Source: Clostridiales bacterium
Lineage (GTDB): Bacteria > Bacillota > Clostridia > Christensenellales > Pumilibacteraceae
DNA length: 57,394 nucleotides
Reading direction: 5' to 3'
Assembly: GCA_029070965.1 (NCBI GenBank)
Contig: JAIEBI010000026.1
Coordinates: forward strand, 1-57,394
The notes below the pieces were generated by a model, which was given only the letters and a program-made list of their open reading frames with translations, was not told where the DNA came from and searched no databases. Below are positions 16,939-39,487 of the stretch, piece by piece (positions within the stretch are counted from its first letter, which is position 1; each line of letters opens with the position of its first letter). A program made the translations under genes and the position numbers.

Positions 16939-17066
16939 CTCGGCGGCGAAGACGCGCGTCAGACGGGCAACAGTTGGCAAGGCGGCGACGGGAGCGTACA
17001 TAGACGTACGTGACCAAGCTGCCGAACCAAACGTAGCCCGTATCACGCGATGAATACGCCGCCGAG
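16939..17066 (+). ncRNA. Structured repeat element, copy A (candidate RNA family)
   Basis: 128 bp between the 3' ends of Xre 1 and the DUF5131 gene. Outer stem CTCGGCGGCG / CGCCGCCGAG. Middle helices ACGGGC / GCCCGT and GGCGGC / GCTGCC. Apical hairpin GCGTAC / GTACGT flanked by CGACGGGA and TGACC. It is homologous to copy B at 39357-39487: same core, spacing within 1 nt on both sides, but different paired bases. The non-Watson-Crick pairs are G-U on the + strand. Function unknown. It could be a 3' UTR structure, a small RNA or a mobile palindromic element. Confidence 0.65.
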
Positions 17067-17068
17067 AA

Positions 17069-17944
17069 TTATTTATAACACCTGCCGCAGTTGGAACAGC
17101 CGTTGCAAATAAGTTTGTTTCCGCAACGCTGACAGTTTGCTCGATAATGCGGAACGTATAACTCGCTCTTTGGAATAGGCAATCCAAACCTATCCGTAAG
17201 CTTAAATTCGATAGGCTTGCCGCTGTGCGACAGTCCTTCCGCGTACGCCATATACGTTTGGCGTATTTTGCTTTTTATAAACTGAGTCTTGCCGTTCTTT
17301 ACGTAATAATTGCCCGTTTCTATAAACGCAAAGGTTACGTCGTACGCCTTGCACTCGTCGGATAGCTTTTTAACCCAATCGTAATGGCACGGTCGCGCTC
17401 CGTCGTAGTTTTCCCCGCCGCAAATCACCTGCTCTATTTGACCTTGCTCCAAATACTTAGCTATCGATATTTCGCCGATTAGCGGCGCGGTCATAATACC
17501 TTTGTGCTTGAACGGTAGATCGTGCAGTATGGGTATGCGCTCGTCGGCACGGCGTTGGTTTTCGCACGTAATGTTGAAGAACACGTTTTCCCAGCCGTCG
17601 CCCCAGTCCTTGGGCAATAGCTTACTTACGCGCTGTGGGCGTTTTGTCAATAGAAAAAACTTGACGTCCGGTCGGTCGTGAATTATATTCCAAACCTCGT
17701 TGCGCCACTCGTCCGCGCCTTCCACAAAAAAGTCGGACGTCATGCATACTCGTATCATCTCCCCGCTTTTTACCTTGTAGCTGCCGTCGCGATTTTTAGC
17801 CAGCGGATAATAAAAGCCGTTTGTCCTCGTAACGACCGAGCTGTCGCCGCCGTTATGCGTTTTGTCGAGATAATACATATAGCAGTGAGCACAGCCCTCG
17901 CTGCATTTTTGACAGCCGTGCCACGGATTCCAAATATCGTGCAT
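17069..17944 (-). CDS. DUF5131 (phage Gp37/Gp68-type) protein, radical-SAM-like
   Basis: 291 residues. The N-terminus has WNPWHGCQKCSEGCAHCY, the cysteine cluster that defines this family and resembles a radical-SAM 4Fe-4S site. The C-terminus has a second cysteine set (CQRCGNKLICNGCSNCGRCY), likely zinc or iron-sulfur binding. The reaction is unknown. The start overlaps the SirTM stop by 1 bp, so it is translated with the ADP-ribosylation genes. Structured element A begins 2 nt past its stop. Confidence 0.8.
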   Translation of the reverse strand: MHDIWNPWHGCQKCSEGCAHCYMYYLDKTHNGGDSSVVTRTNGFYYPLAKNRDGSYKVKSGEMIRVCMTSDFFVEGADEWRNEVWNIIHDRPDVKFFLLTKRPQRVSKLLPKDWGDGWENVFFNITCENQRRADERIPILHDLPFKHKGIMTAPLIGEISIAKYLEQGQIEQVICGGENYDGARPCHYDWVKKLSDECKAYDVTFAFIETGNYYVKNGKTQFIKSKIRQTYMAYAEGLSHSGKPIEFKLTDRFGLPIPKSELYVPHYRANCQRCGNKLICNGCSNCGRCYK

Positions 17945-18801
17945 TATATTTCCCTCTTTATCGCCGACAAAACATTGCCTATATCGTCGTTAATACAAAT
18001 GGAGCGGCTTTCGATTTGCGGCGGACACATCGCTTCGCCGTAGTTTATGCAAGCGTAAGTCGCCTTCGGATTTTGGCTTGTAAGCCGCCAAAACGGATAT
18101 TTGATTATCACGGGCGTGTTGCCACCCACGCCGAGTTCTAAAAACAGTATGCGCGAATCCTTATGCTTGTGGACAAAATCCTCGTACCGCGCGCACGCCT
18201 CGTCCCAGCCGTCGTCCTGCACAAACTTATCGTCGGCGCGCAAGTTCATCGTCATAGGCTTGCCGCAAATGGGACAGCGCGGAATGAGCTCGGTCGGGAT
18301 TTTCATATCCTTTTGTTCGGCGACCATGCGGCGGATAATGTCCTCGTTGTCGTAGGTCTTGTTATGGCAAGGCACAGAGCATTGAAACAAGCCGTAATCG
18401 CCCTGCGTATAGAATAACCGACGTTTATCGAACCCCGCTTTTTGAAAGCAGTGGTCTACGTTGGTTGTAATGACAAAATAGTTCTTGTCCTTTACAAGCT
18501 CGTACAGCTCGTTATACACAGGCTTGGGCGGGTCTTGGTAGCGGTTGATAAGAACGTACCGCGACCAATACGCCCAATGTTCTTCGGGCGTGGAATACGG
18601 ATAAAATCCGCCGCTGTACATATCGTAAAAATTATACTTTTGCTCGAAGTCACCGAAAGTCTTGCGAAAGCGTTCGCCCGAATAGGTAAACCCCGCCGAC
18701 GTGGAAAGTCCCGCGCCCGCGCCGATAATAACATAATCCACACTATCTAACGCGGCTTGCAGTCTTTTAATTTGCGCCGAGCAGTCTTGCGTAAATGTCA
18801 T
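17944..18801 (-). CDS. SirTM-class sirtuin (protein ADP-ribosyltransferase type)
   Basis: 285 residues. NAD-binding GAGAGLSTSAGF at the N-terminus; TTNVDHCFQKAG and TQGDYGLFQC replace the deacetylase His motif. That substitution marks the macrodomain-linked SirTM class, reported to ADP-ribosylate proteins rather than deacetylate them. Two structural-zinc Cys pairs follow (CSVPC, CPICG). I chose ATG 18801 because an SD (AAGGAT) precedes it. It overlaps the macrodomain gene by 35 bp. No GcvH-L or LplA2 partner, as in Staphylococcus and Streptococcus operons, is present. Confidence 0.85.
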   Translation of the reverse strand: MTFTQDCSAQIKRLQAALDSVDYVIIGAGAGLSTSAGFTYSGERFRKTFGDFEQKYNFYDMYSGGFYPYSTPEEHWAYWSRYVLINRYQDPPKPVYNELYELVKDKNYFVITTNVDHCFQKAGFDKRRLFYTQGDYGLFQCSVPCHNKTYDNEDIIRRMVAEQKDMKIPTELIPRCPICGKPMTMNLRADDKFVQDDGWDEACARYEDFVHKHKDSRILFLELGVGGNTPVIIKYPFWRLTSQNPKATYACINYGEAMCPPQIESRSICINDDIGNVLSAIKREI

Positions 18802-19534
18802 AATCGTAATCCTTGAAAACGTTGAAAATAACTTTGATTTTGCTGTGCGTTTTTTGCTTGTATTCGCCAACCGTTGCAATAGCTATCTCGGCGGCGCGGT
18901 CATTAGGAAAGTGAAATTCGCCCGTAGAAATACAGCAAAACGCTATGCTTTGCAAACCGTTTGCATCGGCAAGTTCGAGACAGGAGCGGTAACAGCTTGC
19001 AAGCTGCTCCTCGTGCTTTTTTGTAAGTCCGCCGTAAACTATCGGACCGACGGTATGCAAAACGTACTTGCACGGCAGGTTGTAGCCGCGTGTGATTTTG
19101 GCGCTGCCCGTCGGTTCCGGCTTGCCCTGCGCTTCCATAATTTCCGCGCACTCTTGCCTCAGCTGCACACCCGCAAATGTGTGGATTGCGTTGTCTATAC
19201 AACCGTGATTAGGATGAAAACAGCCGAGCATTTGCGAATTGGCGGCGTTGACTATGCCATCGCATTTGAGCGTGGTTATATCGCCTTGCCCAAGATAAAT
19301 ATCAGGCGAAATCGTCACAGGCGACAGCTCGGCAATACCGATTACGCCTTTAATGCGCAACTGCTCTTGCAGGTATTCGTCTTGAAGCCGCAAAAATTCC
19401 TCGCTTGCCTGCTTTGGCATGCGCACATTTACGAGCGCGCGAAAGTACCTACCCTTTTCCTTTTCGGAAAGAACAGGCACATCTTCACCGCGCTCTGCGC
19501 AAAGTATTTCGATTAAACGGTCTAACTTGGTCAT
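18767..19534 (-). CDS. Macrodomain ADP-ribose hydrolase, SirTM-linked zinc type
   Basis: 255 residues. A helical N-terminal extension (about 90 residues) precedes a macrodomain beginning GDITTLKCDGIVNAANSQMLGC. The insert GCFHPNHGCIDNAIH carries the Cys/His set of zinc-containing macrodomains found beside SirTM. It should remove ADP-ribose from the SirTM target, giving a write-erase pair. Start 19534 lies 2 bp after the cupin stop; a longer in-frame extension upstream overlaps the cupin gene and is less likely. Confidence 0.85.
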   Translation of the reverse strand: MTKLDRLIEILCAERGEDVPVLSEKEKGRYFRALVNVRMPKQASEEFLRLQDEYLQEQLRIKGVIGIAELSPVTISPDIYLGQGDITTLKCDGIVNAANSQMLGCFHPNHGCIDNAIHTFAGVQLRQECAEIMEAQGKPEPTGSAKITRGYNLPCKYVLHTVGPIVYGGLTKKHEEQLASCYRSCLELADANGLQSIAFCCISTGEFHFPNDRAAEIAIATVGEYKQKTHSKIKVIFNVFKDYDYDIYARLLGAN

Positions 19535-19536
19535 TC

Positions 19537-19884
19537 CTACACTACTGCGTCGGTCATTGTGTAACCTTGCAGCGAATTCTCCTTTACTTGTATGCAAATG
19601 TATTTTATACCGGCGTCGTCGGCAGCAAAGAATTGGCGTTTTGCCGCAGGCGGGATGCGCAACCAATCGCCGGCAGTCAAAACTACTTTTTCGCCGTCGA
19701 TTACGGCATAGCCCTTGCCTTCTATAACGGCGTAAATTTCTTCGTTTTGCTTGTGCGAATGAACAAACGGCACGCTCGCACCGGCGGGCAAAGTATTTAT
19801 GCTTATCTCGGCTCCCGTCAGTCCCAATGCGTCATGAAGCTCGATGCGCGGCTCGTTAGTGATAGTGATTTTGTTGTAATTCAT
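19537..19884 (-). CDS. Small single-domain cupin protein
   Basis: 115 residues. Cupin motif 1 (HSHKQNEEIYAVIEGKG) and motif 2 (GDWLRIPPAAKRQF) are visible. The metal-binding His/His/Glu of motif 1 is intact, while motif 2 lacks a clear His. It is the first gene of the macro-SirTM-DUF5131 operon, with a strong SD (GGAGG). It may sense or bind a small ligand; no reaction can be assigned. Confidence 0.85.
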   Translation of the reverse strand: MNYNKITITNEPRIELHDALGLTGAEISINTLPAGASVPFVHSHKQNEEIYAVIEGKGYAVIDGEKVVLTAGDWLRIPPAAKRQFFAADDAGIKYICIQVKENSLQGYTMTDAVV

Positions 19885-19916
19885 AATGCAACCTCCAATG
19901 ATTGTTTGTTGCTCTC

Positions 19917-19945
19917 ATTATATCACTTACAAAAGCGCAATACAA
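19917..19945 (-). promoter_or_regulatory. Promoter of the cupin-macro-SirTM-DUF5131 operon
   Basis: Minus strand TTGTAT (19945-19940), 17 bp, TATAAT (19922-19917). The 60-bp stretch toward the HxlR gene holds two GTTACT copies that could be regulator half-sites. Confidence 0.75.
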
Positions 19946-20004
19946 TACAGTTACTTTTTTATTATTCGGTAATAGATTTGTTACTAAGTTTCTATTTTGA
20001 ACTA

Positions 20005-20033
20005 TTGACTTTTGCGTGGATATTTGCTATAAT
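20005..20033 (+). promoter_or_regulatory. Promoter of the HxlR regulator
   Basis: TTGACT (20005-20010), 17 bp, TATAAT (20028-20033). The short leader carries the SD AAGGAG. Confidence 0.85.
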
Positions 20034-20054
20034 GCGAAAAAAGGAGTGAATACT

Positions 20055-20381
20055 ATGCTGACGCGCGAAGAATTACCCGAATGCCCCGTTGCCACTACCG
20101 TACAGCTTATCGGCAACAAGTGGAAGCTGCTTATAATACGCAATTTGATTTACAACGGCGAACAGCGGTTCAGCGATTTTCCCAAGACCATTCCAGCCAT
20201 AAGCAAAAAGGTTTTAACCGATAATCTTCGCGCTTTGGAAAACGACGGTATAATAAACAGACAGGTTTTTGCCGAAGTGCCGCCGCGCGTGGTGTATTCC
20301 CTGTCCGAGCTGGGCAAAACGTTAAAGCCCGTTTTAGACGCCATGGTAGACTGGGGTACCGAATACAAAAGCAAGCTGTAA
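20055..20381 (+). CDS. HxlR-family transcriptional regulator
   Basis: 108 residues, a single winged-helix HxlR domain (ATTVQLIGNKWKLLIIRNLI; FSDFPKTIPAISKKVLTDNLR). A Cys at residue 10 (PECPV) is at the position used for redox or electrophile sensing in several family members. Start 20055 has an SD (AAGGAG). It is divergent from the cupin-macro-SirTM-DUF5131 operon and likely controls it. Confidence 0.9.
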   Translation: MLTREELPECPVATTVQLIGNKWKLLIIRNLIYNGEQRFSDFPKTIPAISKKVLTDNLRALENDGIINRQVFAEVPPRVVYSLSELGKTLKPVLDAMVDWGTEYKSKL

Positions 20382-20398
20382 TACTTTACTTAAACAAT

Positions 20399-20431
20399 AA
20401 AGCGGGATTGAGTTTTTCAGTCCCGCTTTTT
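20399..20431. terminator. Bidirectional terminator overlapping a coding end
   Basis: Stem AAAGCGGGA / TCCCGCTTT with a 13-nt loop and a T-run on the + side. On the minus strand the stem encodes the last codons (KKRD) of the next gene, whose stop lies in the loop. Confidence 0.8.
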
Positions 20432-20860
20432 ACGTGATAGTATTTCGGTGTTTACTGCTTTTTTTACCGTATTAAACAAATGCATGCTTGTAGCTGTTTT
20501 TAAATAGTATTCCAGCCTATCCGAATATTCGTAAATATAAATATCGTTGTGCGTGCGCGAGGCAAACACCATAGGCAATTCGCCCACCTGCGCGGTAGCC
20601 ACAGGCGACGCGCTTTGTGCATAGGCATAATTTTGCGGCGCGGGCTGAGCATATCCACCTATCGGCGAACTGTTTTGCGCATAGCCGCCGTCGAACCCGT
20701 TGTTTTGCGGCGCAGTCGGCGTATAAGCGTTTTGGTAATTATTATTTTCAGGACTGCCGAAGTCGGTTGGAAACACAGTTTTTTCGCTGTACCCCGTCGA
20801 GTTTTGCTCGCTGTCGTTTTGCCTGCCGAACGCTCTTCTTCTGCCGTTATTTTCAAACAT
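20417..20860 (-). CDS. Small protein with Asn/Gln/Pro-rich N-terminus
   Basis: 147 residues. The first 95 are low-complexity (Asn, Gln, Ala, Tyr) and probably disordered. The last 50 (from GELPMVFASRTHNDIYIYEY) look folded. I recognise no family. A good SD (GAGGT) and the 4-bp distance from the serS stop argue that it is real and co-transcribed with serS. The final codons lie inside the terminator stem. Confidence 0.6.
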   Translation of the reverse strand: MFENNGRRRAFGRQNDSEQNSTGYSEKTVFPTDFGSPENNNYQNAYTPTAPQNNGFDGGYAQNSSPIGGYAQPAPQNYAYAQSASPVATAQVGELPMVFASRTHNDIYIYEYSDRLEYYLKTATSMHLFNTVKKAVNTEILSRKKRD

Positions 20861-20864
20861 AATA

Positions 20865-22139
20865 CTACCTCAAAATATCAGTGCCTAAGAACTCTTGCAA
20901 TACCTTCGGAACGGTGACCGAGCCGTCTTTGTTTTGGTTTTGCTCGACGATTGCGGGCAATACGCGCGAGGTTGCAAGCCCCGATCCGTTGAGCGTATGC
21001 ACGTAGCCGATTTTGCCGTCAGCGCCGCGGTAGCGCGTCATGTTGCGCCGCGCCTGATAGTCGTTGGCGTTGGATACCGAGCTGACCTCTTTGTAAATAC
21101 CCATGGACGGAATCCAAATTTCTATATCGTAGGTGCGCGCCATGGACGCCGAGCAGTCGCCCGCCGCCAGCTTGCTAAGCCTGTAATGAAGTCCCAGACC
21201 TTCCACCAAAGCACACGCCTTGTTTACAAGCTCCTCAAACGCCGCCTTGCTTTGGTCGGGCGTAGTGACCTGAACCATTTCCACCTTGTTGAACTGGTGA
21301 CCGCGAATCATGCCGCGCTCTTCGGCACGGTACGAACCCGCTTCCTTGCGGTAGCACGGAGTGTATGCAAACAGCTTTTTGGGCAGCTCGCTCTCCTGCA
21401 AAATTTCGCCGCGGTAAAGGTTGACAAGCGCGGTTTCCGCCGTAGGCAACATAAACCTGCGCGCCGCGCCGCCCTCGGCGGTTTCCACGCGGTAAACGTC
21501 GTCCTCAAACTTGGGGAACTGCCCCGCGCCAAGCCCGCATTCGTAATTAAGCATATGCGGCGGGAGTATAAAGTTGTAGCCGTCCGCCGTGTGGGTCTTG
21601 ATAAAGTAATTAATCAGCGCCCATTCGAGCAAAGCGCCGCGACCGGTGTACAGCCACGAGCCGTTGCCCGCAAGCTTTACGCCACGCTCGTAGTCGATAA
21701 GGTGCAAGCTCTCGCAAAGCTCAACGTGGTTTTTGATGGGGAAATCAAATTCAGGCTTGTTGCCCCAAACCTTGACCACCGCGTTGTTCTCCTTGCCGCC
21801 CGCAACAACGTCCTCGTCGGGAAGATTGGGAAGACAAAGCAATGCAGTCCTAAGCTCGTCCTCGACTGCTTTTAACTGTTCGTCGTTGCCCGCTATCTCG
21901 TCGCCCAGCTCGCGCATCTTTGCGAATATCGGCTGAACGTCCTTGCCCTCTTTTTTGAGCCGAGGAATGTCCGCGCTCACCTTGTTCTTTTCGGCTTTGA
22001 GCGCTTCGGTCTTGCCGATAATGTCGCGCCGCTTGCCGTCAAGCGCGAGTATAGCCTTTAAGTCGGCGTCACAGCCGCGCTTAGCAAACGCCGCCGCCAC
22101 ACCGTCCGGATTGTTGCGTATAAGGTTGATATCTATCAT
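20865..22139 (-). CDS. serS: Seryl-tRNA synthetase
   Basis: 424 residues. N-terminal helical arm (residues 30-100), then a class II core with TAETALVNLY, motif 2 (CYRKEAGSYRAEERGMIRGHQF) and motif 3 (NGSGLATSRVL). It charges tRNA-Ser and tRNA-Sec. Start 22139 has an SD (AAAGGA); the upstream in-frame start does not. It has its own promoter (TTGCTT, 17 bp, TATAAT) with a short leader that has no room for a T-box. Confidence 0.96.
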   Translation of the reverse strand: MIDINLIRNNPDGVAAAFAKRGCDADLKAILALDGKRRDIIGKTEALKAEKNKVSADIPRLKKEGKDVQPIFAKMRELGDEIAGNDEQLKAVEDELRTALLCLPNLPDEDVVAGGKENNAVVKVWGNKPEFDFPIKNHVELCESLHLIDYERGVKLAGNGSWLYTGRGALLEWALINYFIKTHTADGYNFILPPHMLNYECGLGAGQFPKFEDDVYRVETAEGGAARRFMLPTAETALVNLYRGEILQESELPKKLFAYTPCYRKEAGSYRAEERGMIRGHQFNKVEMVQVTTPDQSKAAFEELVNKACALVEGLGLHYRLSKLAAGDCSASMARTYDIEIWIPSMGIYKEVSSVSNANDYQARRNMTRYRGADGKIGYVHTLNGSGLATSRVLPAIVEQNQNKDGSVTVPKVLQEFLGTDILR

Positions 22140-22189
22140 GTGTTCGTCCTTTGGCTCGGTTGATTTTTTATCCAAGCTTTACCAACTCC

Positions 22190-22218
22190 ATTATATCATT
22201 GAAAGAAGATAAAAGCAA
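22190..22218 (-). promoter_or_regulatory. Promoter of serS
   Basis: Minus strand TTGCTT (22218-22213), 17 bp, TATAAT (22195-22190); about 45 nt of leader. Confidence 0.75.
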
Positions 22219-22248
22219 CAATATGCGCAAATTTATCGGTTTAATTTT

Positions 22249-23877
22249 TTACAAATCTTGTTGCTTTTTGCGCCTGAATTTAAATAAGTGCGTTACCTCC
22301 GATTTTATATTTATCGCGCCGGTAAAGAGTATTCCCAAAGAGTACACTACAACAAACGCCGTCGCCGCGATAATCATTTGCCAAAGGTACGGCATGGCAG
22401 TGTTTTGCAGCGCAACGGCAATTCCCCAAAACGCCAGCCCGCCAAGCGCAGTAAATATGAGCGGCTTGATAAACGCGTTTTTTATGTCCGCGCCGATAGG
22501 TAATTTTTTAGCCGCACTGCGCATAGACAGCGTAGCCGCAACGGCGTAGCACAGCGTGGTGGCAAACGCCGCGCCCGTAATGCCGAACGCACGCACGGTA
22601 AACGGCGTAAGTCCAACCTTGAAGCACGCGCCTATAAGCAAATTGATAACAGGCTTATGTGCCTTGTTATATCCCTGCAACACCGCCGTGGAAAGCTGCA
22701 ATACTCCCACGTAAAATACCGACATGGCTTGCACGCGCAATAGCTGCGACGCAAGCGCCAACTGCTCGGCGGTAAGTCCCTTGCGGTATAGCACGTTGCA
22801 CACGTGCTGCGGAAATACCAAAAACACAGCCGTTATCGGTATTACAAACAGCATTATCCACTTTGCCGCGCTCCTTGTAGGCTCCGCCGCATCCTCGCCC
22901 TTTTCCACTGCGCGAGTGATGGTCGGCAAAAATGCGATAGCCACCGACAGCACTACCACAGTGGGCATATTAATCAGCGTGCCGACAGGCCCGACAAACA
23001 GCCCGAACATTGCGGTAGCGCTTTCACGCCCCGCCCCGCCGTGCATAAGCAGGTTGATTACAAGCACCGAATCTATCATTTGCGTTATCGGCAAAACGAG
23101 CGCGCCCAATGTCACTGACAGCGCAAACGAGAACAATTCTTTAAGTATGGTTTTGTCCGCAACGGGCGGAGCGACTGACAGCTCTTCCGATATTTCGGTT
23201 GCAAGCGCTGGCACTCTGCTAATGCTTACCCGCCTTTTTCCCACCACGGCGTAGCGTATTACCAAATACAATAGCGCGGTAAGCTCGCTTGCCGACACGC
23301 CGATGAGCGCGCCCGCCACCGCGTACTTAACGCCGTACGGCATTAACAGCCTACTCAAATACAAGCCGAGCACGAGCTTGATTATTTGCTCTATCAGCTG
23401 ACTGATGCCGCTCGGGAACATGTGGCATTTGCCTTGGAAATATCCACGCAAAACGTTGATGCCGCCCGCAAACAAAAGGGACGGGCAAAGCGCAAGGTAC
23501 GCAACGCCAGCGTCGGTATTACCCTGCACGCCCGATATTACATTACGAAGTAAAGCCATGCCCGCAGTGCAAACAACCGACATGACAAGCAATGGCACAA
23601 TAGCGATTTTAATACTGCGCTTAGCCGCGCCGTCGTTGCCGAGCGCAGTGTACTTTGCCACCACGCGCGACACCGCGCCCGACATTCCGCTACCGCAAAA
23701 CGCTAACAGCACTGTGTACAGCGGAAAGACCATTTGGTACAAGCCCATGCCTTCCGCGCCCACTATATTTGTGAGCGGCACTCTGTACAGTGCGCCTATA
23801 AGCTTTGCTATCATTCCCATTACGGCAAGCGCGACCGCGCTCCTGCCGAACGACTTTGTTGTGTACTCTTTTTTCAC
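22249..23877 (-). CDS. SpoVB/MurJ-family lipid-linked polysaccharide flippase
   Basis: 542 residues with about 14 hydrophobic helices, of the MVF/MOP exporter group. It starts SFGRSAVALAVMGMIAKLIGALYRVPL, typical of SpoVB/YtgP. Such proteins flip lipid-linked wall precursors; SpoVB is needed for spore cortex. The start is GTG 23877 with no clear SD. It lies 38 bp behind the metallophosphoesterase-HD gene and may share its transcript. Whether it serves vegetative wall or cortex cannot be decided. Confidence 0.85.
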   Translation of the reverse strand: MKKEYTTKSFGRSAVALAVMGMIAKLIGALYRVPLTNIVGAEGMGLYQMVFPLYTVLLAFCGSGMSGAVSRVVAKYTALGNDGAAKRSIKIAIVPLLVMSVVCTAGMALLRNVISGVQGNTDAGVAYLALCPSLLFAGGINVLRGYFQGKCHMFPSGISQLIEQIIKLVLGLYLSRLLMPYGVKYAVAGALIGVSASELTALLYLVIRYAVVGKRRVSISRVPALATEISEELSVAPPVADKTILKELFSFALSVTLGALVLPITQMIDSVLVINLLMHGGAGRESATAMFGLFVGPVGTLINMPTVVVLSVAIAFLPTITRAVEKGEDAAEPTRSAAKWIMLFVIPITAVFLVFPQHVCNVLYRKGLTAEQLALASQLLRVQAMSVFYVGVLQLSTAVLQGYNKAHKPVINLLIGACFKVGLTPFTVRAFGITGAAFATTLCYAVAATLSMRSAAKKLPIGADIKNAFIKPLIFTALGGLAFWGIAVALQNTAMPYLWQMIIAATAFVVVYSLGILFTGAINIKSEVTHLFKFRRKKQQDL

Positions 23878-23915
23878 ACATATAGTATGATTAAAACTAC
23901 ACGGCGTAATGCGCG

Positions 23916-24920: not shown

Positions 24921-24949
24921 AATATCCCCTTATGATATTTTTGTATATA

Positions 24950-31427: not shown

Positions 31428-31439
31428 GTATTTCGCCAA

Positions 31440-31610: not shown

Positions 31611-31616
31611 CTATTG

Positions 31617-31645
31617 TCATATTCTGTCGAAAGCGGTCATACATT
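31617..31645 (+). promoter_or_regulatory. Sigma-E-type sporulation promoter of spoIIID
   Basis: TCATATT (31617-31623), 14 bp, CATACATT (31638-31645). This agrees with the Bacillus sigma-E consensus (ATATT, 14-15 bp, CATACA-T). Transcription of spoIIID by sigma-E is known in Bacillus. Confidence 0.75.
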
Positions 31646-31673
31646 ATACAACCGCTAAAAATTAGGGGGCATT

Positions 31674-31940
31674 ATGACGAACAATGACAGCAAAAACATC
31701 CGCGCCGTAGAACTGGGCAAATACATAGCCGAAAACGAATGCACGGTGCGCGACGCGGCAAAGCGCTTTGAAATGGGCAAGTCCACGGTACACAAGGACG
31801 TGACCGAGCGCCTACCCATACTCGAACCCGAACTATTCGGGCGCGTGCGCAAAATACTCGACTACAACCTTAGCGTGCGCCACCTGCGCGGCGGCGAAGC
31901 CACCAAACAAAAGTGCTTGGACGCACACAAAAATGACTAA
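31674..31940 (+). CDS. spoIIID: Sporulation transcription factor SpoIIID
   Basis: 88 residues, full length. One HTH (TVRDAAKRFEMGKSTVHKDV) and the conserved basic C-terminal part (VRHLRGGEATKQK) match SpoIIID. It acts in the mother cell, adjusting the sigma-E regulon and preparing sigma-K. SD AGGGGG. Its presence with a sigma-E-like promoter is the best evidence here that the organism forms spores. Confidence 0.96.
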   Translation: MTNNDSKNIRAVELGKYIAENECTVRDAAKRFEMGKSTVHKDVTERLPILEPELFGRVRKILDYNLSVRHLRGGEATKQKCLDAHKND

Positions 31941-31982
31941 AAAGACCGTCCCCTATTGATGTAATTTGGGGACGGTCTTTTT
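31939..31982. terminator. Bidirectional terminator after spoIIID
   Basis: Perfect 15-bp stem AAAAAGACCGTCCCC / GGGGACGGTCTTTTT with a 14-nt loop, serving spoIIID (+) and the membrane protein (-). Confidence 0.9.
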
Positions 31983-31992
31983 ATTATTGTTT

Positions 31993-33099
31993 TTACTTTG
32001 CCGTAACAGCTCGTCTATTAATAGAAACTTGCAAAGCAGTAAAAGCTATGTGCAATGTTATTAGCATGAACAATAACGGTAGATATATTTTGCTCACAGC
32101 ATGCAACCATTCGCCAATCATGTACGTTTCAAAAGCCGAACCGTTTATCACCAATATTCTAAAAATCAAATGTCCGGCAGTCAATACGCCTGTTAGCACA
32201 ATGGAAGTTATTATCCTATGCTTTGTTAAAAAATGATATGCCACTGTCGGCTGGATAATTTCATCTAACATAACTATAAAGGTAATTGCTGTTGCTATAA
32301 ACAGTACAGGTTCCACTATATCCGTGTATAAGGAATACACAAGCGCCTCTCCGCCGCCCTCGACGGTAAACACATTGCCGTTAAACATTTTTTGCAAACC
32401 GTACATTAAATCCATAAATGATTCGTTATTCAGTATTGCAACTATTATGCACATCGCAATAAAAGTAAATATATCCTTTGCCGCTATTATCAACGCTGGA
32501 ATTAACTTTCGCTGCACTTTTTCATCAAAAAGCACAATCATTATTTCCCGCAACACAAATACAATTCCAACTAACACAAGAATAGCAATAACTGCTTCGG
32601 TAATTTCGCAAGGCGAAATCAAGCCGGCTACAACAATAAGAACAATTAAAAATCTAAGCGAACTTAAACAATTGTCGTATATTATGCTGGACGCGCCGAA
32701 TATTTCGCATGCATCGCCGTCTTTTTTTATTACTATATGTATACAGCGTGTGATTGAAATTACCAACCATTTTATCATAAAAGCTAACAATACAATATAC
32801 ATGACCGAAGCGCCAACACCGAAAAGCGTCCTATACACTGTTGCACGACTAATTGTAAACAGTTTTATAAGCAACTTTATAGCATAAACAATTGTGATGT
32901 CATGACGATAGTACTGCACCGCACCGCACAATAGCCAAATTACTATCAATGCTTGCACACACGTAGCAAAAACTGCCGATATTTTAATTGCCAGTCGCTT
33001 AAAATTTACGGAATGGCTTTTATCCTGACTGTCGGCTTCCATATTAGTAACAGCCTCTTCTTTGTGCGGTTCTTGCGACAATTCCAAAGTATCTTCCAT
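31993..33099 (-). CDS. Polytopic membrane protein of unknown function
   Basis: 368 residues. A charged N-terminal tail of about 35 residues is followed by about eight hydrophobic segments. I recognise no family. It is more AT-rich than the surrounding housekeeping genes. Its start overlaps the stop of the upstream anchored protein, so the two form one unit under the Xre 2 operators. Confidence 0.65.
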   Translation of the reverse strand: MEDTLELSQEPHKEEAVTNMEADSQDKSHSVNFKRLAIKISAVFATCVQALIVIWLLCGAVQYYRHDITIVYAIKLLIKLFTISRATVYRTLFGVGASVMYIVLLAFMIKWLVISITRCIHIVIKKDGDACEIFGASSIIYDNCLSSLRFLIVLIVVAGLISPCEITEAVIAILVLVGIVFVLREIMIVLFDEKVQRKLIPALIIAAKDIFTFIAMCIIVAILNNESFMDLMYGLQKMFNGNVFTVEGGGEALVYSLYTDIVEPVLFIATAITFIVMLDEIIQPTVAYHFLTKHRIITSIVLTGVLTAGHLIFRILVINGSAFETYMIGEWLHAVSKIYLPLLFMLITLHIAFTALQVSINRRAVTAK

Positions 33100-34184
33100 T
33101 ATTCTCCCTCCGTCATAAGCTCGACATATTCTTTTGCCGATAAAGCGGAAATGCTGTCATACCCTTTTATAACCGTATTGTTAATTGCCGAAAACTCAAA
33201 TTCGTCGTACTCCAAGTAGTCGAATTTCAATGTGACTCCTGTTTGTGATGATGTCACTTTATCTAATTCATACTCGTTTTCGATAGATAAGTACACAACG
33301 GGGTTGGTATCGTCACCCAAATCAACCTCGAATTTTCCTGATAAATCGTCAGAATTCAAATATGACGGACTGCCAACAATAGAGAGCAACGTTGTTGCAA
33401 ACGATTTAAAGGGGCTTTTTTTAAGTGAATATACACTACCCTTTTTATTAAAACTATCGCCGTCATATCCACTTATGCAATTGCCCATAGCGGATAAAAT
33501 CCGAAAATTCATGCTATTTACCGAATTAAATTCCGAAATAATCCTTCTACCTTCCGAAACATCAGCCGTAAAATCACCCCACCTTCCGAGCACTCGCTCA
33601 AACATATAATTGTTTACTCCGTTAACCGCCATATGCGCCTTATTTATCCGTAACATAACGCGGTCTTTAGCTATGAGTATATCTATATTAAGCGATATAT
33701 CGCTATAACTTTTAGATACCTCTGTCTTGTTGTCTTTCTGTGTCGATGTTTCGGCGTCGATTGTAGCAGTACATTCGGAATGATAAAAAGTGGCATTCTC
33801 GGTTATATACACTTGCATAAACCGCTGATATGTAGCTATCGAAAACCCATTGTCGGTCGAATTACTGCTGTAATCCATTTTTACATATGCGGAAGATTCC
33901 TCGCTAAACGTAACACTCTTATACTTACCGACAGACTGTTCAACGTCTTCCTCATCTTCGCTTAATTCAGATATTTCTTCCGAAAAATTATAGCCGTTCA
34001 ATTGAGGCGAGAATGCTTCAAGCATTTCACCCATTTCTTTCATAGACGATATTCGTGCATTAGTTCCGCTACCTTCTCCTACTTTGACAGAATTGAAATC
34101 GTAAAACATTATACACGACACAACGACAAGCACAAGACAAATAGCAATGTATACTATTCTTTTTACCAAAAGCTTCTTTTCCAT
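33099..34184 (-). CDS. Membrane-anchored extracytoplasmic protein of unknown function
   Basis: 361 residues. One N-terminal hydrophobic segment (about residues 9-27) then a large Ser-rich, acidic exterior domain. A Cys lies within the segment but does not form a clean lipobox. Start at the second of two adjacent ATGs (34184), which is better spaced from AAGGAG; 34187 is possible. Codon use is AT-richer than neighbours, which may indicate transfer. It is paired with the polytopic protein. Confidence 0.65.
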   Translation of the reverse strand: MEKKLLVKRIVYIAICLVLVVVSCIMFYDFNSVKVGEGSGTNARISSMKEMGEMLEAFSPQLNGYNFSEEISELSEDEEDVEQSVGKYKSVTFSEESSAYVKMDYSSNSTDNGFSIATYQRFMQVYITENATFYHSECTATIDAETSTQKDNKTEVSKSYSDISLNIDILIAKDRVMLRINKAHMAVNGVNNYMFERVLGRWGDFTADVSEGRRIISEFNSVNSMNFRILSAMGNCISGYDGDSFNKKGSVYSLKKSPFKSFATTLLSIVGSPSYLNSDDLSGKFEVDLGDDTNPVVYLSIENEYELDKVTSSQTGVTLKFDYLEYDEFEFSAINNTVIKGYDSISALSAKEYVELMTEGE

Positions 34185-34243
34185 CATATCTCCTTCTTTC
34201 GTATTACAAACACAATCGTTATTTAATTTTCGATTAGTTTATT

Positions 34244-34321
34244 TTGTTCTCATATAGGAACAAAATAATATTACCACAATAATATAATGGTGTCAAGTGT
34301 TTGCACTTATATAGGTGCAAA
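34244..34321. promoter_or_regulatory. Divergent promoter region with two operators (Xre module 2)
   Basis: Two palindromes share an 8-bp TNATATAG centre but differ in their arms: TTGTTC / GAACAA (34244-34263) and TTTGCAC / GTGCAAA (34300-34321). The minus promoter TTGACA (34296-34291), 17 bp, TAATAT (34273-34268) lies between them; the first palindrome covers its start site. The + promoter is less certain (TTGTTC-TAATAT at 34244-34271, or TTGCAC-TATTAT at 34301-34330). Confidence 0.7.
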
Positions 34322-34341
34322 AAATATTATAAGGAGTTTAT

Positions 34342-34572
34342 ATGAACGCACAAATAGAAACGCGCATAGGCAACAACATTAGGCGACTTAGAGAGAAAGC
34401 GGGATTTACGCAGGACTACGTTGCGACCAAGCTGCAAATAAACGGGTGCGACATAACGCGCAGTGCGGTTGCCAAAATAGAGATTGGCAAACGCCACCTC
34501 TACCCCGACGAAATCATATTGCTTAAACAAATATTAAACGTCGAGTACGACGAAATTTTTGCGCAGGATTAA
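34342..34572 (+). CDS. Xre-family HTH regulator 2
   Basis: 76 residues, a Cro/CI-type HTH (AGFTQDYVATKLQINGCDITRSAVAKIEIG). Unlike the other two Xre genes here it has an SD (AAGGAG). Two palindromic operators lie between it and the divergent pair of membrane protein genes, which it probably controls together with itself. Confidence 0.88.
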   Translation: MNAQIETRIGNNIRRLREKAGFTQDYVATKLQINGCDITRSAVAKIEIGKRHLYPDEIILLKQILNVEYDEIFAQD

Positions 34573-34599
34573 ACTACGGTAGAACCCACACAGCCAACC

Positions 34600-34632
34600 G
34601 AGTAGTATTTTGCCGAAAGGCATATAATACTC
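34600..34632 (+). other. Hairpin downstream of Xre 2
   Basis: GAGTAGTATT pairs with AATACTC around an inner GCC-GAAA-GGC stem-loop. It has no T-run, so it is not a classical terminator. The 154 bp between Xre 2 and prs hold no gene. Confidence 0.4.
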
Positions 34633-34671
34633 ACCTTTTATGACATTACGCGACAAAAAAAACATGCATAT

Positions 34672-34709
34672 AAAAAACTGTCACAAGACTTTACTTGCGA
34701 CAGTTTTTT
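34672..34709. terminator. Bidirectional terminator of prs / Xre 2
   Basis: Stem AAAAAACTGTC / GACAGTTTTTT extended by CAAG / CTTG across one mismatch; T-runs on both sides. Confidence 0.85.
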
Positions 34710-34726
34710 GTTTGCATTATTGTTTT

Positions 34727-35692
34727 TTAATCGTACAGCTTGGACACCGGCATATCGGCGTAGATGCAAGATATTGCGGATGCGAATATGGGCGCTACCG
34801 AAACGGTGATGAACTTGTCCAGCTTCTTTTCGGGCGGAAGCTCTATGGTGTCGAGCATAAACACCTTTTTGATGACCGAGTTTTGCAGCCGCTCTATCGC
34901 GGGACCGGATAGCACGGAGTGCGTGCAGCACGCGTACACGTCGGTCGCGCCGCCCACGTCCACCAGCGCTTGCGCGCCCTGAACGATTGTGCCTGCGGTG
35001 TCTATCATATCGTCGAGTATAAGGCAACGCTTGCCCCTAACGTCGCCGACTATGTTCATAACCTCCATAACGTTGGCTTTGGGTCGGCGTTTATCTACGA
35101 TTGCAAGCATCTTATTGAGCTTTTGCGCCATTTGCCGCGCCCTGCCCACCGAGCCGACGTCTGGCGATACTACTACAAGGTCGTCGCCCGCTTCCTTTAT
35201 AAATTGCTCGCCCGCAATCGCTTTTGCGAGTATGGGCGCGCCCAAAAGGTGATCGACGGGGATATTGAAAAAGCCTTGGATTTGCGGCGCGTGCAAGTCC
35301 ATTGTAAGTACTCTATCCGCGCCTGCGGTGGTTATAAGGTCGGCCACAAGCTTGGCGGTAATGGGGTCGCGCGCGTGCGCTTTCCTGTCCTGCCGCGCAT
35401 AGCCGAAATACGGAATGACGGCTGTAATCCTGCCCGCCGAAGCGCGTTTGAGCGCGTCGATCATTACAAGCAGCTCCATAAGGTTGTCGTTGGTCGGAAT
35501 GGACGTGGACTGTATTACAAACACGTCGCAACCGCGAACGGTCTCGCCTATCGACACCGACGTTTCGCCGTCGCTGAACTGGCCCACTTCCGCTTCGGAA
35601 AGTTTCAAGCACATATTGTCAGCTATCGATTGCGCAAGCTTTCGACACGCGTTGCCGCAAAACAACTTAACCTTATTGCCGTGTGCTATCAT
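34727..35692 (-). CDS. prs: Ribose-phosphate pyrophosphokinase
   Basis: 321 residues. It makes PRPP from ribose-5-phosphate and ATP for nucleotide, His and Trp synthesis. Visible: [18 protein letters not shown], the flexible-loop region and the PRPP signature [21 protein letters not shown]. It follows the glmU-like gene by 36 bp, the conserved glmU-prs order of Firmicutes. Confidence 0.96.
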
Positions 35693-35728
35693 TTGCTGCC
35701 TCCAAAGGATTTATGTTTACTGCGGCAT

Positions 35729-36958
35729 TTAGCCGTTGTAACCGTTGTTGTCGTCGCTGTTTTTCTCGGGCTCAGACTGTTCGGGGCTATTCTCCGTTTC
35801 GCTTGCGGCGCCGTCGATAATTCCTTCCTCGTCCTGAATAAGCCTGTACGGCGAAGGATTTTCGTTACCCACGGGCGGCGCGTACTTATTGCCGGCCCAG
35901 TGCGGAATATTCCGTTGCCGTGCGCGCGCAATCGCCAACGCTTCCGCGGGGACCTCGTCGGTGACGGTAGAACCCGCCGCGATAAACGCATGGTCGGCTA
36001 TATGCACGGGCGAGATTATATTCGAGTTGGAGCCTATAAATACGCGATTGCCGACGATTGATTTGTACTTGTCCTTGCCGTCGTAGTTGGCAAACACCAC
36101 GCCGCAACCGACGTTACATTCGGCGCCCAGCTCGGCGTCGCCGATATACGTAAGATGGCTTACTTTGCAGCCGTCGCCTATTACGCAGCTTTTAAGCTCG
36201 ACAAAGTCGCCGATGCGACATTCCTTGCCTATAACGCTGTTGGGGCGAATGTAAGCAAACGGGCCTACGCGCGTCCCCTCGCCTACAATGCTCGAATAAA
36301 GCCGCGAGCTGTCCACACGCGCGTCCTTGCCGATTATGCAGTTTTCTATATAGTTGTTGGGCATAATGTGCGCATCAGCTTTGATGACCGTTTTGCCCTT
36401 GATAAAGTTGTACGCTTCCACGACCGCGCCGCGCTCTATAACGACGTCGCTGTCGATATACACGTTTTTGTAATCGGTAATAAGCACGCCGTTGCCCGCG
36501 TGGAAATTGAGTATTCTTCGGCGCAACGAATCGGTTATGCGCGACAGGCTTTCGCAGTCGGTGACAGCCTCAAACTCGCCGCTGCCCGTCGGGGCTTGCG
36601 GAAAAAGCGTTTCGGTATTGTAAATATAATCGGTTTTGAACACCGAGCCGCGCGGCAGCTTTACAACGTTCGCGTTTTGCGTAGTCAGCTGGCGGATAGC
36701 ATTTTCCACCGTCTTGGCGGTGATAAGCGGCGTGTCGCAGTAAAGCACCACCGTTATCGGCTTAGTGCGGTCGATAAGCGGCTTGATCTTTTCCGCAATG
36801 TTGATTACAGTGGACGATTCAATAGCTTGACACGGCACGTTGAGCGCACCCGCTACCCACTCCTCCATCGTTTTGCCGAGGACGGGAAGGTTCCACAGAT
36901 CGCCGAGATTGTTGTTCTTTACGCGGAGAATAACTCCGTTTATACCGATATTAACCAT
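35729..36958 (-). CDS. glmU: GlmU-like protein with degenerate uridylyltransferase domain
   Basis: 409 residues against about 455. The C-terminal left-handed beta-helix acetyltransferase domain looks intact (VSHLTYIGDAELG with the catalytic His; ANYDGKDKYKSIVG; AARARQRN-type end). The N-terminal domain is about 165 instead of 230 residues. Where GlmU has LAAGxGTRM...LPK this protein reads ILRVKNNNLGDLWNLP, so the UTP-binding loop is lost. CDTPLIT marks the remnant of the GDxPL motif. Probably only glucosamine-1-phosphate acetylation remains. An acidic, Asn-rich tail of about 30 residues follows. The start is leaderless. Confidence 0.85.
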   Translation of the reverse strand: MVNIGINGVILRVKNNNLGDLWNLPVLGKTMEEWVAGALNVPCQAIESSTVINIAEKIKPLIDRTKPITVVLYCDTPLITAKTVENAIRQLTTQNANVVKLPRGSVFKTDYIYNTETLFPQAPTGSGEFEAVTDCESLSRITDSLRRRILNFHAGNGVLITDYKNVYIDSDVVIERGAVVEAYNFIKGKTVIKADAHIMPNNYIENCIIGKDARVDSSRLYSSIVGEGTRVGPFAYIRPNSVIGKECRIGDFVELKSCVIGDGCKVSHLTYIGDAELGAECNVGCGVVFANYDGKDKYKSIVGNRVFIGSNSNIISPVHIADHAFIAAGSTVTDEVPAEALAIARARQRNIPHWAGNKYAPPVGNENPSPYRLIQDEEGIIDGAASETENSPEQSEPEKNSDDNNGYNG

Positions 36959-36964
36959 ATTTTA

Positions 36965-36993
36965 ATTATACTCTTTTACTTGAAGTTAGTCAA
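36965..36993 (-). promoter_or_regulatory. Promoter giving a leaderless glmU-like mRNA
   Basis: Minus strand TTGACT (36993-36988), 17 bp, TATAAT (36970-36965), then 6 nt to the ATG at 36958. No SD. Confidence 0.85.
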
Positions 36994-37017
36994 CGAAATT
37001 ATATATGTGCTAATGCC

Positions 37018-38595
37018 CTATAACGTTGCAATATATTCGTCGTAAGTCACGGGACGGTCGTACGCCTTGACGCCGTTTTCTATTATGATTATGCGGTTGG
37101 CAACCGACGACATGATTTCCTCGTCCGCCGTGATGAACAGTATGGGCGCTTTAAAATTTATCATGCCCTTATTGAGTGAGGTTATACTCTCCAAATCGAG
37201 GTGGTTGGTCGGCTCGTCAAACATGAGGAAATTGGGCGAAAGCAACATCATACGAGCAAGCATGCACCGCGCCTTTTCGCCGCCCGACAACACGTTTGCC
37301 GGCTTTAACGCCTCATCGCCCGAAAACAGCAATCTACCCAGCCACGAACGCAGGTATTCCTGCTCGTGGTTTTCCGACCACTGGTCTATCCACTTGACAA
37401 GCGACATTGCGCAGCCCTCGAAATACTTGTCGTAGTTTTGCGGCATATACGCGGGCTTAATATTTTTGCCCCATATCACCCTGCCCGAATCGGGCTTGCT
37501 GTCGCCGAATATGCAGTCGAACAGCTCCGCCACCGAGCGGCTGTTGTCAGTCAAAAATCCTATCTTGTCGTCGCGCGAAACGGAGAACGTAACGTTTTCG
37601 AAAAAGCCTTTTTTTGTCAGCTTTTCCACGCGCAGTATGTCATTCCCGGGGTCGCGCTCGAATTTATAATCTATATACGGGTACTTGCGCGACGACGGCT
37701 TGATGTCCTCTACCACTATCTTGTCCAGCTCGCGCTTGCGGCTGGTAGCCTGCTTGGACTTACTGGCGTTTGCCGAGAACCGCGCAATGAATTCGCGCAG
37801 CTCCTTAATACGCTGCTCGGCTTTTTTGTTTGCTTCCTTTTGCTGGCGCAAAATAAGCTGCGACGATTCGTACCAAAAGTCGTAGTTGCCCACGAACATA
37901 TTGATTGCCGAATAGTCCACGTCGCAAATGTGCGTGCAAACTTGGTTGAGAAAGTGACGGTTGTGCGATACGACAAGCACCGTCGCCTGTTCGAGCGATT
38001 TGATGTATTCCTGCAACCATCTAACCGTCTTTATATCGAGGTTGTTGGTAGGCTCGTCCAAAAGCAAAATGTCGGGCTGACCGAAAAGGCATTGTGCAAT
38101 AAGCACTTTAACTTTCAGCTTAGGCTCGATATCGCGCATTTCCACGTCAAACAATTCTTGCGGTATACCAATGCTGTTAAGCAGCGTTTCGGCGTCGATT
38201 TCGCACTCATACCCGCCAAGCTCGCCGTACTTGGTTTCCAGCTCGGCGGCTATATTGCCGTCCTCCTCCGAAAAATCCTCTTTGGCATAAAGGATTTCGC
38301 GCTTGCGCCGAATTTCGCTCAGCTGCTTGTGTCCGCAAATGACCGCCTCGCGTACGGTGTAATCGTCGTACGCGTTTTGGTTCTGTTCGAGAACGGACAT
38401 ACGCTCGCCCTTGCCTATTATAATCTCGCCCTTGCTCGGCTCGATTTTACCGGACAACAGTTTGAGAAATGTGGACTTGCCCGCGCCGTTCGCGCCGATA
38501 ATGCCGTAGCAGTTGCCGCCGGTAAATTTGATACTGACGTTTTCAAACAGCACGCGCGCGCCGAATTGAAGCTTTACGTTTGATACGTTAATCAT
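37018..38595 (-). CDS. ABC-F ATPase (YbiT-like) with one degenerate ATP site
   Basis: 525 residues, two ATPase domains joined by a charged linker, no membrane segments. ABC-F proteins act on the ribosome. NBD1 keeps Walker A (GANGAGKST), Walker B (LLLDEPT) and the His switch (VSHNRH), but its signature LSGGE is replaced by IEPKL. NBD2 keeps signature LSGGEKAR and Walker B, but Walker A reads FLTDNSRS and the switch His is gone (ITADEE). Because each site joins Walker A of one half with the signature of the other, all losses fall in one site. Close in layout to YbiT. Confidence 0.9.
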   Translation of the reverse strand: MINVSNVKLQFGARVLFENVSIKFTGGNCYGIIGANGAGKSTFLKLLSGKIEPSKGEIIIGKGERMSVLEQNQNAYDDYTVREAVICGHKQLSEIRRKREILYAKEDFSEEDGNIAAELETKYGELGGYECEIDAETLLNSIGIPQELFDVEMRDIEPKLKVKVLIAQCLFGQPDILLLDEPTNNLDIKTVRWLQEYIKSLEQATVLVVSHNRHFLNQVCTHICDVDYSAINMFVGNYDFWYESSQLILRQQKEANKKAEQRIKELREFIARFSANASKSKQATSRKRELDKIVVEDIKPSSRKYPYIDYKFERDPGNDILRVEKLTKKGFFENVTFSVSRDDKIGFLTDNSRSVAELFDCIFGDSKPDSGRVIWGKNIKPAYMPQNYDKYFEGCAMSLVKWIDQWSENHEQEYLRSWLGRLLFSGDEALKPANVLSGGEKARCMLARMMLLSPNFLMFDEPTNHLDLESITSLNKGMINFKAPILFITADEEIMSSVANRIIIIENGVKAYDRPVTYDEYIATL

Positions 38596-38624
38596 TAAAT
38601 ATGTTTCCTATTCCGATTATTAAC

Positions 38625-38640
38625 GTATGTATTATAGCAT
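38625..38640 (-). promoter_or_regulatory. Probable extended -10 promoter of the ABC-F gene
   Basis: On the minus strand an ATGCTATAAT-type extended -10 lies about 30 nt before the ABC-F start. No good -35 is visible. Confidence 0.55.
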
Positions 38641-38707
38641 GTTAAAAAATAAAAGTACACTGTTTTGACCGCAATAATTCGCAAAGTCAAATATCGTAAA
38701 TAACCGA

Positions 38708-38971
38708 TTATGTTAAACACTCCATAGCCAAAAGCAATCCCGTCCTTAACCCCTCCTTAAAATGCGCAGTATCTGCCTCAGAACAAACCGCTGTTGCCGT
38801 ATCAACATATTCCTTAAAAATCTTTTTCTGTTCGTCGTTTAAGATATCGAACAGTTGCATATACAATTTATGTGCCTTGTCGGCTTTTTTCTTATATTCT
38901 TCGCTGAATACGACTTTCTTGCCCAATCTTTCGTTATTCAATAAGCATTCATCTATAATAGAATTTTCCAT
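38708..38971 (-). CDS. Small DUF6809-like protein, target of Xre 3
   Basis: 87 residues, all helical and soluble (FKEYVDTATAVCSEADTAHFKEGLRTGLLLAMECL). The C-terminal pattern resembles small DUF6809-type proteins often found in clostridial mobile elements; this is a weak match from memory. SD AGGAG. Its promoter is fully consensus, with an operator filling the spacer. Confidence 0.65.
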   Translation of the reverse strand: MENSIIDECLLNNERLGKKVVFSEEYKKKADKAHKLYMQLFDILNDEQKKIFKEYVDTATAVCSEADTAHFKEGLRTGLLLAMECLT

Positions 38972-38990
38972 TAAATTACTCTCCTATTAC

Positions 38991-39082
38991 ATCTATATCA
39001 TAGATAATTGCATTATAAATCTATGACATAGATATGTCAAGACTTTCCAAATAAAAATCAGTAAAATATCTATATGATAGAA
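38991..39082. promoter_or_regulatory. Divergent promoters with three operators (Xre module 3)
   Basis: Three copies of ATCTAT-N3-ATAGAT: 38991-39005, 39019-39033 and 39068-39082 (last one 14 of 15 bases). The minus promoter TTGACA (39040-39035), 17 bp, TATAAT (39017-39012) has the middle operator exactly within its spacer; the first covers its start site. The third spans the regulator's start codon, whose ATG (39074-39076) is the operator's 3-bp centre. The regulator's -10 is TAAAAT (39062-39067). Confidence 0.85.
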
Positions 39083-39292
39083 ATCAATATCAAAGAGCTT
39101 GGTGAGCGAATAAAAGATTTGCGGTTGGAACTCGGACTATCTCAAAAGCAGTTAGCCGATAAGATAGGCGCGGCAGCAAACACCGTTTCTCAATACGAAA
39201 GCGGTAAATCCAGAACAAGCATTGATATTTTGGCAAACTTAGCCGTAGCACTGAACACAACAACCGATTATCTTTTAGGATTAGAACAATAA
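39074..39292 (+). CDS. Xre-family HTH regulator 3
   Basis: 72 residues, a Cro/CI HTH (LGLSQKQLADKIGAAANTVSQYESGKSRTSIDILANLA) close to phage-type repressors, no other domain. The ATG is 6 nt past the -10 and has no SD, so initiation is leaderless. Autoregulation is likely because an operator covers its own start codon. A terminator follows its stop directly. Confidence 0.9.
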   Translation: MIEINIKELGERIKDLRLELGLSQKQLADKIGAAANTVSQYESGKSRTSIDILANLAVALNTTTDYLLGLEQ

Positions 39293-39323
39293 AAAGACCC
39301 TGCATTGTTTGCAAGGTCTTTTT
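39291..39323 (+). terminator. Terminator of Xre 3
   Basis: Stem AAAAAGACC / GGTCTTTTT with an inner TGCA / TGCA pairing across one mismatch; starts inside the stop codon. Confidence 0.85.
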
Positions 39324-39356
39324 GATTTTTGACTGTTACTTGTTGTTTAGAATGAA

Positions 39357-39487
39357 CTTTTATGGCGCAGGCGCGCGCAAGAGAAGAAAGTCCGTTTTGC
39401 CGACCGACGGGAGTTTACTTTATCGGTAAATGACCGAGGGCGGCAAAGCGGCTGACGCACTATTGAGCGATGCATCCGCCATAAAAG
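39357..39487 (+). ncRNA. Structured repeat element, copy B (candidate RNA family)
   Basis: 131 bp that starts 33 bp past the Xre 3 terminator and ends 3 nt before the rpsR stop codon. Outer stem CTTTTATGGCG / CGCCATAAAAG (perfect). Middle helix GTTTTGCCG / CGGCAAAGC, extended by AGtCC / GGCT. Apical hairpin GTTTAC / GTAAAT. Unpaired CGACGGGA and TGACC are identical to copy A, while the paired bases differ. The near-pairs are again G-U on the + strand. No clear promoter lies in the 33 bp before it. Confidence 0.65.

Follow-up and report, generated by a model that had tools for sequence, protein, structure and literature searches.

The attC sites of integrons are imperfect hairpins that lie just behind a stop codon and work as a folded strand antisense to the gene, with conserved outer ends (the RYYYAAC and GTTRRRY boxes) and a variable tip. 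Repetitive extragenic palindromes (REPs) are described as palindromes 20-40 bp in length, one end of which carries a GTAG or CGTC tag; conv-REPs are reported mostly within 20 bp of gene 3' ends and uni-REPs near the end of the upstream gene, the termini of GTAG REPs can supply stop codons, and CGTC REPs are said to be without a dedicated transposase (PMC3733652). Rickettsia palindromic elements (RPEs) are reported as long stem-loops of 105-146 bp, dispersed in the genome, which form open reading frames fused in frame within protein genes (PMC2229807), and enterobacterial repetitive intergenic consensus (ERIC/RU-1) and miniature inverted-repeat transposable element (MITE)-like sequences as 127-bp intergenic inverted-repeat elements in many copies, with defined terminal inverted repeats and TA target duplications (PMC2229807, PMC2759123). 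Here we consider two sequences in a contig from a Clostridiales bacterium of the Pumilibacteraceae (assembly GCA_029070965.1, contig JAIEBI010000026.1), positions 1 to 57,394 of which are referred to as the window. A preliminary description had presented them as two copies of a structured non-coding RNA element with compensatory base changes. The structure and the compensatory changes stand, transcription as a non-coding RNA finds no support, and the description had missed that the element is dispersed in many copies over several phyla, with a fixed position and orientation at stop codons. Both sequences are probably copies of one dispersed, non-autonomous mobile hairpin family of about 125 bp, which is typically placed at stop codons and has a single-stranded working form.

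Structure and covariation of the hairpin

Copy 1 (type A) extends over 16934..17067 and copy 2 (type B) over 39353..39487, both on the + strand, and both match the covariance model R1, which was built from 11 copies of the same genome including these two, over model positions 1-132, its full length (138.9 and 114.9 bits respectively). The apical core, consisting of GACGGGAG, a variable stem-loop and TGACC, lies at 16987..17015 (+) in copy 1 and at 39406..39435 (+) in copy 2. The outer left arms, distal to the gene, are CTCGGCGGCG at 16939..16948 (+) and CTTTTATGGCG at 39357..39367 (+), and each is exactly complementary to the right, gene-side arm of its own copy, at 17057..17066 (+) and 39477..39487 (+). 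The shared blocks, the apical stems and these differing yet complementary outer arms are real, and lie where they had originally been placed. Each copy is predicted to form a single unbranched hairpin of about 128 nt, with a fold better than that of 200 of 200 shuffles on either strand and best on the + strand (folding z of -10.95 for copy 1 and -7.54 for copy 2 on the + strand, -6.10 and -5.20 on the - strand). Two occurrences of the core pattern were counted in the window, against none in 100 shuffles of it.

Covariation in the hairpin family is overwhelming, and bears out the compensatory base changes first noticed between the two copies in alignments both from the own genome and across phyla. 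Among the 11 own-genome copies, 94.6% of cells pair, compared with 71.4% after shuffling, and both sides change in 29 of 39 pairs, with slid controls dropping to 23-40%. The corresponding figures for 123 distinct sequences, in an alignment fitted to the model, are 89.4% against 58.5% shuffled, with both sides changing in 35 of 39 pairs. The pattern by which copies were collected requires GACGGGAG...TGACC, and in the scan of public genomes also TA...TA, and because these letters are fixed by data selection the claims of covariation rest on the other columns. At the two variable apical pairs, 219 of 235 elements have Watson-Crick pairing in both, with six combinations represented; next to the tandem G-A mismatches, the G stands opposite U in 115 of 122 sequences; and the core mismatches themselves stay unrepaired across phyla. 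The outermost pairs each show at least four pair types, and in the left outer arm, more than 30 nt from the core, no column reaches 50% conservation.

Comparison with Rfam 15, proposed earlier as a check, gave no family match for the element: at the gathering score the whole window matches only the large signal recognition particle (SRP) RNA, away from both copies, the two copies show only weak unrelated matches at E up to 10, and 18 other element loci match only tmRNA and SRP. The bacterial large SRP RNA of the window lies at 15051-15314 (+). Identity with skipping-rope RNA was considered and dropped, there being neither an Rfam match nor an informative paper.

Dispersal, placement and host-matched arms

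The family extends well outside the window. There are 17 pattern matches in the own genome, 11 of which have the hairpin core, so that it holds at least 11 copies, and within a set of 60 relatives at least one hairpin-type match was recognised by eye in 17 of 19 congeners, with as many as 27 pattern matches in one genome, a few of them not hairpins. The coordinates of the matches coincide between G016 and G074, the genome of the Anaerocaecibacter muris locus L128, which suggests that the window comes from the genus of this member of the Clostridia. A pattern scan of public genomes returned at least 112 stretches, mostly from uncultured Clostridia, and among the matches listed are Verrucomicrobia, Bacteroidales, Alpha- and Deltaproteobacteria, Acetobacterium wieringae and Staphylococcus petrasii; in a single genome of the Verrucomicrobia, of 1.3 Mb, the pattern is matched 39 times. 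When 27 copies from chosen loci were folded, most gave the long hairpin and some its inner part only. A covariance-model search, of the kind suggested earlier, likewise brought more copies from several phyla, model R1 of the 11 own copies giving 127 matches in 94 chosen sources, most of which span the full model, with relatives in Clostridia, Verrucomicrobia, Bacteroidetes, Proteobacteria and Staphylococcus. The commonest length is about 120-130 bp. Tandem arrays of two or three elements were also observed (L147:5375-5821, L099:1179-1655 and L090:5638-5940). The distribution is patchy: of 398 Bacillota genomes sampled, the pattern is matched in 37, and among the matches listed only those of the own genome look hairpin-like by eye, the others resembling chance, with a reversed control pattern giving numbers similar to those of the listed matches outside the own genome. 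Queries with one Clostridia copy and one Staphylococcus copy found no match in plasmid and phage collections. Viral contigs gave no match with the strict pattern and seven with a looser one; among these seven, the model is matched over its whole length by L413 and partially by L411.

Empty sites, variable presence and near-identical copies with unrelated flanks show dispersal. At the L012 locus, the congener G015 has an empty site, in which TAATTC runs on into the downstream sequence, and the own genome has the element there, followed by GGCTTGGT; at the site of window copy 1, G004 reads TAATTGG and the own genome TAATT followed by the element. No target-site duplication was seen by eye in two such empty/filled pairs. 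At the L012 locus of G004 and G008 (L294 and L295) the element is absent, and an inverted repeat, CCTACTTCTTTGAAAAGAAGTAGG, stands behind the same stop codon. Behind rpsR, G000 and G006 carry the element; it is displaced by about 280 bp in G015, where extra DNA of that length lies between rpsR and the element (L200), and is reduced in G008 to a relic that has lost the inside and kept the paired arms; G012 and G004, with rpsR 94% and 93% identical, have no element directly behind the gene, and the model finds one on its other side. Behind rpsE, G000 and G015 have one element in common, G004 (98% identical to G000 in the rpsE query) has at this place a different subtype, whose arms differ, other elements are found in G009, G005 and, more divergent, G003, and several congeners have none. 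Behind rplJ, six genomes carry an element of one or other of two subtypes, two more have what by eye are relics, and others have none. Two copies in the Verrucomicrobia genome are 95% identical with unrelated flanks.

Placement was studied in a mainly Clostridial set, with genes called by a codon-usage open reading frame (ORF) script: 187 instances from 198 loci, of which 31, either truncated or having under 15 pairs, were removed, leaving 156, and a further 7 had no called right-hand gene, leaving 149. The right-hand gene is on the opposite strand in 126 of these 149. The stop codon of an opposite-strand gene lies within 10 nt of the nominal element end in 77 of 149, compared with 2.5% of 5788 random intergenic points, and within 30 nt in 87 of 149, compared with 6.9%, an enrichment possibly overstated by up to about twofold, as random points fall only on the intergenic side of the stop and observed ends on both. 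In the mirror arrangement, with a + strand gene ending at the left end, the distance is at most 10 nt in none of 143 cases and at most 30 nt in 4. These statistics ignore the kinship of copies, and simple p-values would therefore overstate significance. The stop codon often lies inside the outer stem, and the overlaps seen are at gene ends. Among the genes followed by an element in Clostridia are rpsR, rpsE, rplJ, rpsG, guaA, purH and queA.

The window copies fit this placement, and the earlier observation that they end beside minus-strand stop codons holds. Copy 1 has as its host a DUF5131 gene (PF07505; 17069..17944, - strand, stop codon 17069-17071), from which its outer arm is 2 nt away, and copy 2 has rpsR, encoding ribosomal protein S18 (PF01084; 39491..39766, - strand, stop codon 39491-39493), at 3 nt. 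The accompanying claim that each element starts just past an Xre gene is correct for copy 2, which follows an HTH_3 gene at 39074-39292, and fails as a trait of the family. A small + strand ORF (16691-16903) precedes copy 1, and a link of the element to Xre genes was rejected because other copies have other left neighbours and this ORF also occurs in G004, where the site is empty. Outside copy 2, positions 39291-39323 hold an ordinary terminator.

A second, unrelated palindrome with the core TCGACGTAGCGCTGCTACGA, absent from the window, was also observed behind stop codons in congeners (L224 and L237, behind rpsE; L207 and L214, behind rpsR; and L067), so that the 3' ends of genes seem to serve hairpin elements in general as a niche.

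The outermost arms frequently mirror the host. Over 235 elements and 20 permutations, the distal arm scores on average 7.06 in ungapped comparison with the 3' end of its own host and 4.65 (sd 0.09) with those of other copies, and 40 of the 235 score at least 10. Alignments of arm and host were made for 23 elements of 22 chosen loci. Six queA-linked copies (L026, L059, L083, L112, L121 and L134) have arms that repeat 11-13 nt of the coding sequence preceding the stop codon, and in most of the six the arms differ in their letters, yet match their own host. The arm of L066 matches the host end in 12 of 16 positions, that of L148 matches only with gaps, and that of L078 is not aligned at the stop codon.

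Folding strand and competing explanations

Isolated transition mismatches were counted in a strand-symmetric alignment of 142 elements, leaving out truncated, poorly paired, N-bearing and duplicate ones. On the + strand 129 are G-U and 41 are A-C (59:16 in the outer and 70:25 in the inner region), and there are 76 elements with more G-U and 19 with more A-C. Both inner arms are T-poor and A-rich on the + strand (149 elements), as would be expected for the unpaired A's of a folded RNA. Because G-U pairs and unpaired A's both fall on the + strand, the folding strand is the + strand, antisense to the host gene, and the assignment of G-U to + and A-C to -, first made on two copies, holds for the family. 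The further step to a + strand RNA is borne out as regards the folding strand and not as regards transcription, promoter signals being no commoner than in controls. Either RNA, from unmapped transcription, or single-stranded DNA could be the form that folds.

In the mechanism that we propose, the element would, in the Clostridia studied, typically insert at or a few nt behind a stop codon, oriented so that its structured + strand is antisense to the host gene. The part recognised would be the GACGGGAG/TGACC core, with its tandem G-A mismatches and G-U pair, together with the A-rich internal loops; the rest of the stem would need only to pair, its sequence drifting by compensatory change, and the outermost arm would in many copies follow the host's 3' end. 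In its working form the + strand would be a folded single strand, either RNA or single-stranded DNA at replication, recognised by a trans-acting factor that is not encoded nearby. Mobilisation by resident reverse transcriptase or Y1 enzymes is argued against by their absence from most of the 12 element-bearing genomes tested, with the proviso that drafts may miss genes: RVT_1 (PF00078) is absent from 9, Y1_Tnp (PF01797) from 10, and both from 8 (G000, G006, G011, G015, G033, G062, G069 and G070). Spread by a resident REP-associated tyrosine transposase (RAYT) or reverse transcriptase was rejected. By eye, the 60 largest and the multi-lineage clusters of neighbouring genes contain only housekeeping genes and no recurrent partner.

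Several observations weigh against this proposal. No mobilising gene was found and no transposition observed. The minus-strand stop codon is more than 30 nt away in 39 of 149 copies, and a + strand gene lies on the right in 23 of 149; outside the main set, an ORF of at least 80 aa ends within 30 nt in 23 of 61 elements, a figure for which no null was computed. Promoter-like scores of at least 8 bits stand upstream on the + strand in 24 of 144 elements and on the other strand in 21 of 144, and none was found at either window copy. The cross-phylum loci come mostly from metagenome bins, in which contigs may be misplaced; the Acetobacterium wieringae and Staphylococcus petrasii carriers are named strains. 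Lastly, the arms in the clean empty/filled pair are not derived from the host end. On this ground a general origin of the arms by snap-back copying during insertion was rejected, and a host match may also come about afterwards. Such arms could be the product of selection or of template-switch repair, and the strand asymmetry favours selection.

The most durable alternative to a mobile hairpin is an element acting in cis at the 3' end of its host gene, where it would stabilise the mRNA end, limit read-through or shield the gene from antisense transcription. The precise placement and orientation at stop codons, the arms that keep pairing as host ends change in the six queA-linked copies, and the occupation of the same places by the second palindrome all speak for such a service to the host. 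However, presence is very variable, with G004 differing from the 98%-identical G000 behind rpsE and many congeners having no element there, and the strand under selection is not that of the mRNA. Nor is the stem followed by a T-run more often than expected (16 of 235 on + and 27 of 235 on -, against 14 and 24 further out), for which reason an intrinsic terminator was rejected. Clustering splits the 97 adjacent genes into 73 groups, the largest of which has 8 members, QueA-like by sequence, and is the only one with more than 3, and no common function is visible among them. A role in cis is rather unlikely. Less likely still is a transcribed non-coding RNA of the antisense strand with a function in trans, close to the first view of the locus: the excess of G-U pairs, the loops rich in A, the tandem G-A motif and the covariation would suit such an RNA, but there is no promoter signal, and of 156 copies 92 are flanked by two genes that run in the same direction, to which they are antisense. 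Neutral palindromes whose arms are equalised by template-switch repair of quasi-palindromes, with neither strand selected, would accord with arms that match many different host flanks and with relics that retain paired arms around a deleted inside, but are very improbable in view of the 129:41 asymmetry, the A-rich loops on one strand and the core mismatches left unrepaired across phyla.

Comparison with described repeat families

The mobile hairpin reading has a fuller form that we offer tentatively, and rather doubt: that this is a trans-phylum element, selected as folded antisense RNA or single-stranded DNA, aimed at stop codons in one orientation, with an outer arm derived from the host, and living, among the host genomes tested, mostly in those free of reverse transcriptase and Y1 enzymes. 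Such movement, if real, is undescribed for REPs, MITEs or retroelements in the open-access literature searched. The family adds a large structured group that dots essential operons in Clostridia and recurs in distant phyla. With placement in one orientation within a few nt of the stop, what marks a stop codon for insertion becomes directly testable, and the conserved core could serve as bait for a binding or mobilising protein. The same question of a mobiliser stands for CGTC REPs, which are said to lack a dedicated transposase (PMC3733652).

Like REPs and bacterial interspersed mosaic elements (BIMEs) as there described, the hairpins are dispersed palindromes, patchy over phyla and mostly behind genes, and since REPs are reported near gene 3' ends, some supplying stop codons, this niche has precedent (PMC3733652). 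Unlike REPs, the hairpin element is about 125 bp long, has a single fixed orientation and another conserved core, and neither GTAG nor CGTC is enriched in its outer parts: counted anywhere within the 30-nt outer stretches of 235 elements, irrespective of position, GTAG occurs in 8 on the left and 14 on the right, and CGTC in 11 and 32. It also differs from REPs mobilised by RAYTs in that 10 of 12 element-bearing genomes lack a Y1 transposase. RPEs, with which the family is compared by description only, are alike in size, long stem-loop and dispersal, but are reported to fuse in frame in protein genes, whereas the hairpin copies adjoin gene ends (PMC2229807). ERIC/RU-1 elements are similar as multi-copy intergenic inverted repeats of comparable length (PMC2229807, PMC2759123). 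In contrast to ERIC and MITE-like elements, the hairpin has outer arms that vary between copies, and two empty/filled pairs showed no duplication by eye; assignment to the DDE MITEs by terminal inverted repeats was rejected, the outer arms not being conserved. The arrangement is the reverse of that in attC, with a conserved tip and variable outer ends; a core-anchored composition table, in which the attC boxes were not searched for directly, shows no conserved end columns in the family. This is a real family outside Rfam with an unusual combination of features, namely a cross-phylum core, antisense-strand selection, one-way anchoring at stop codons and host-matched arms, which behaves like REP and RPE elements and has the defining features of none of the families against which it was tested.

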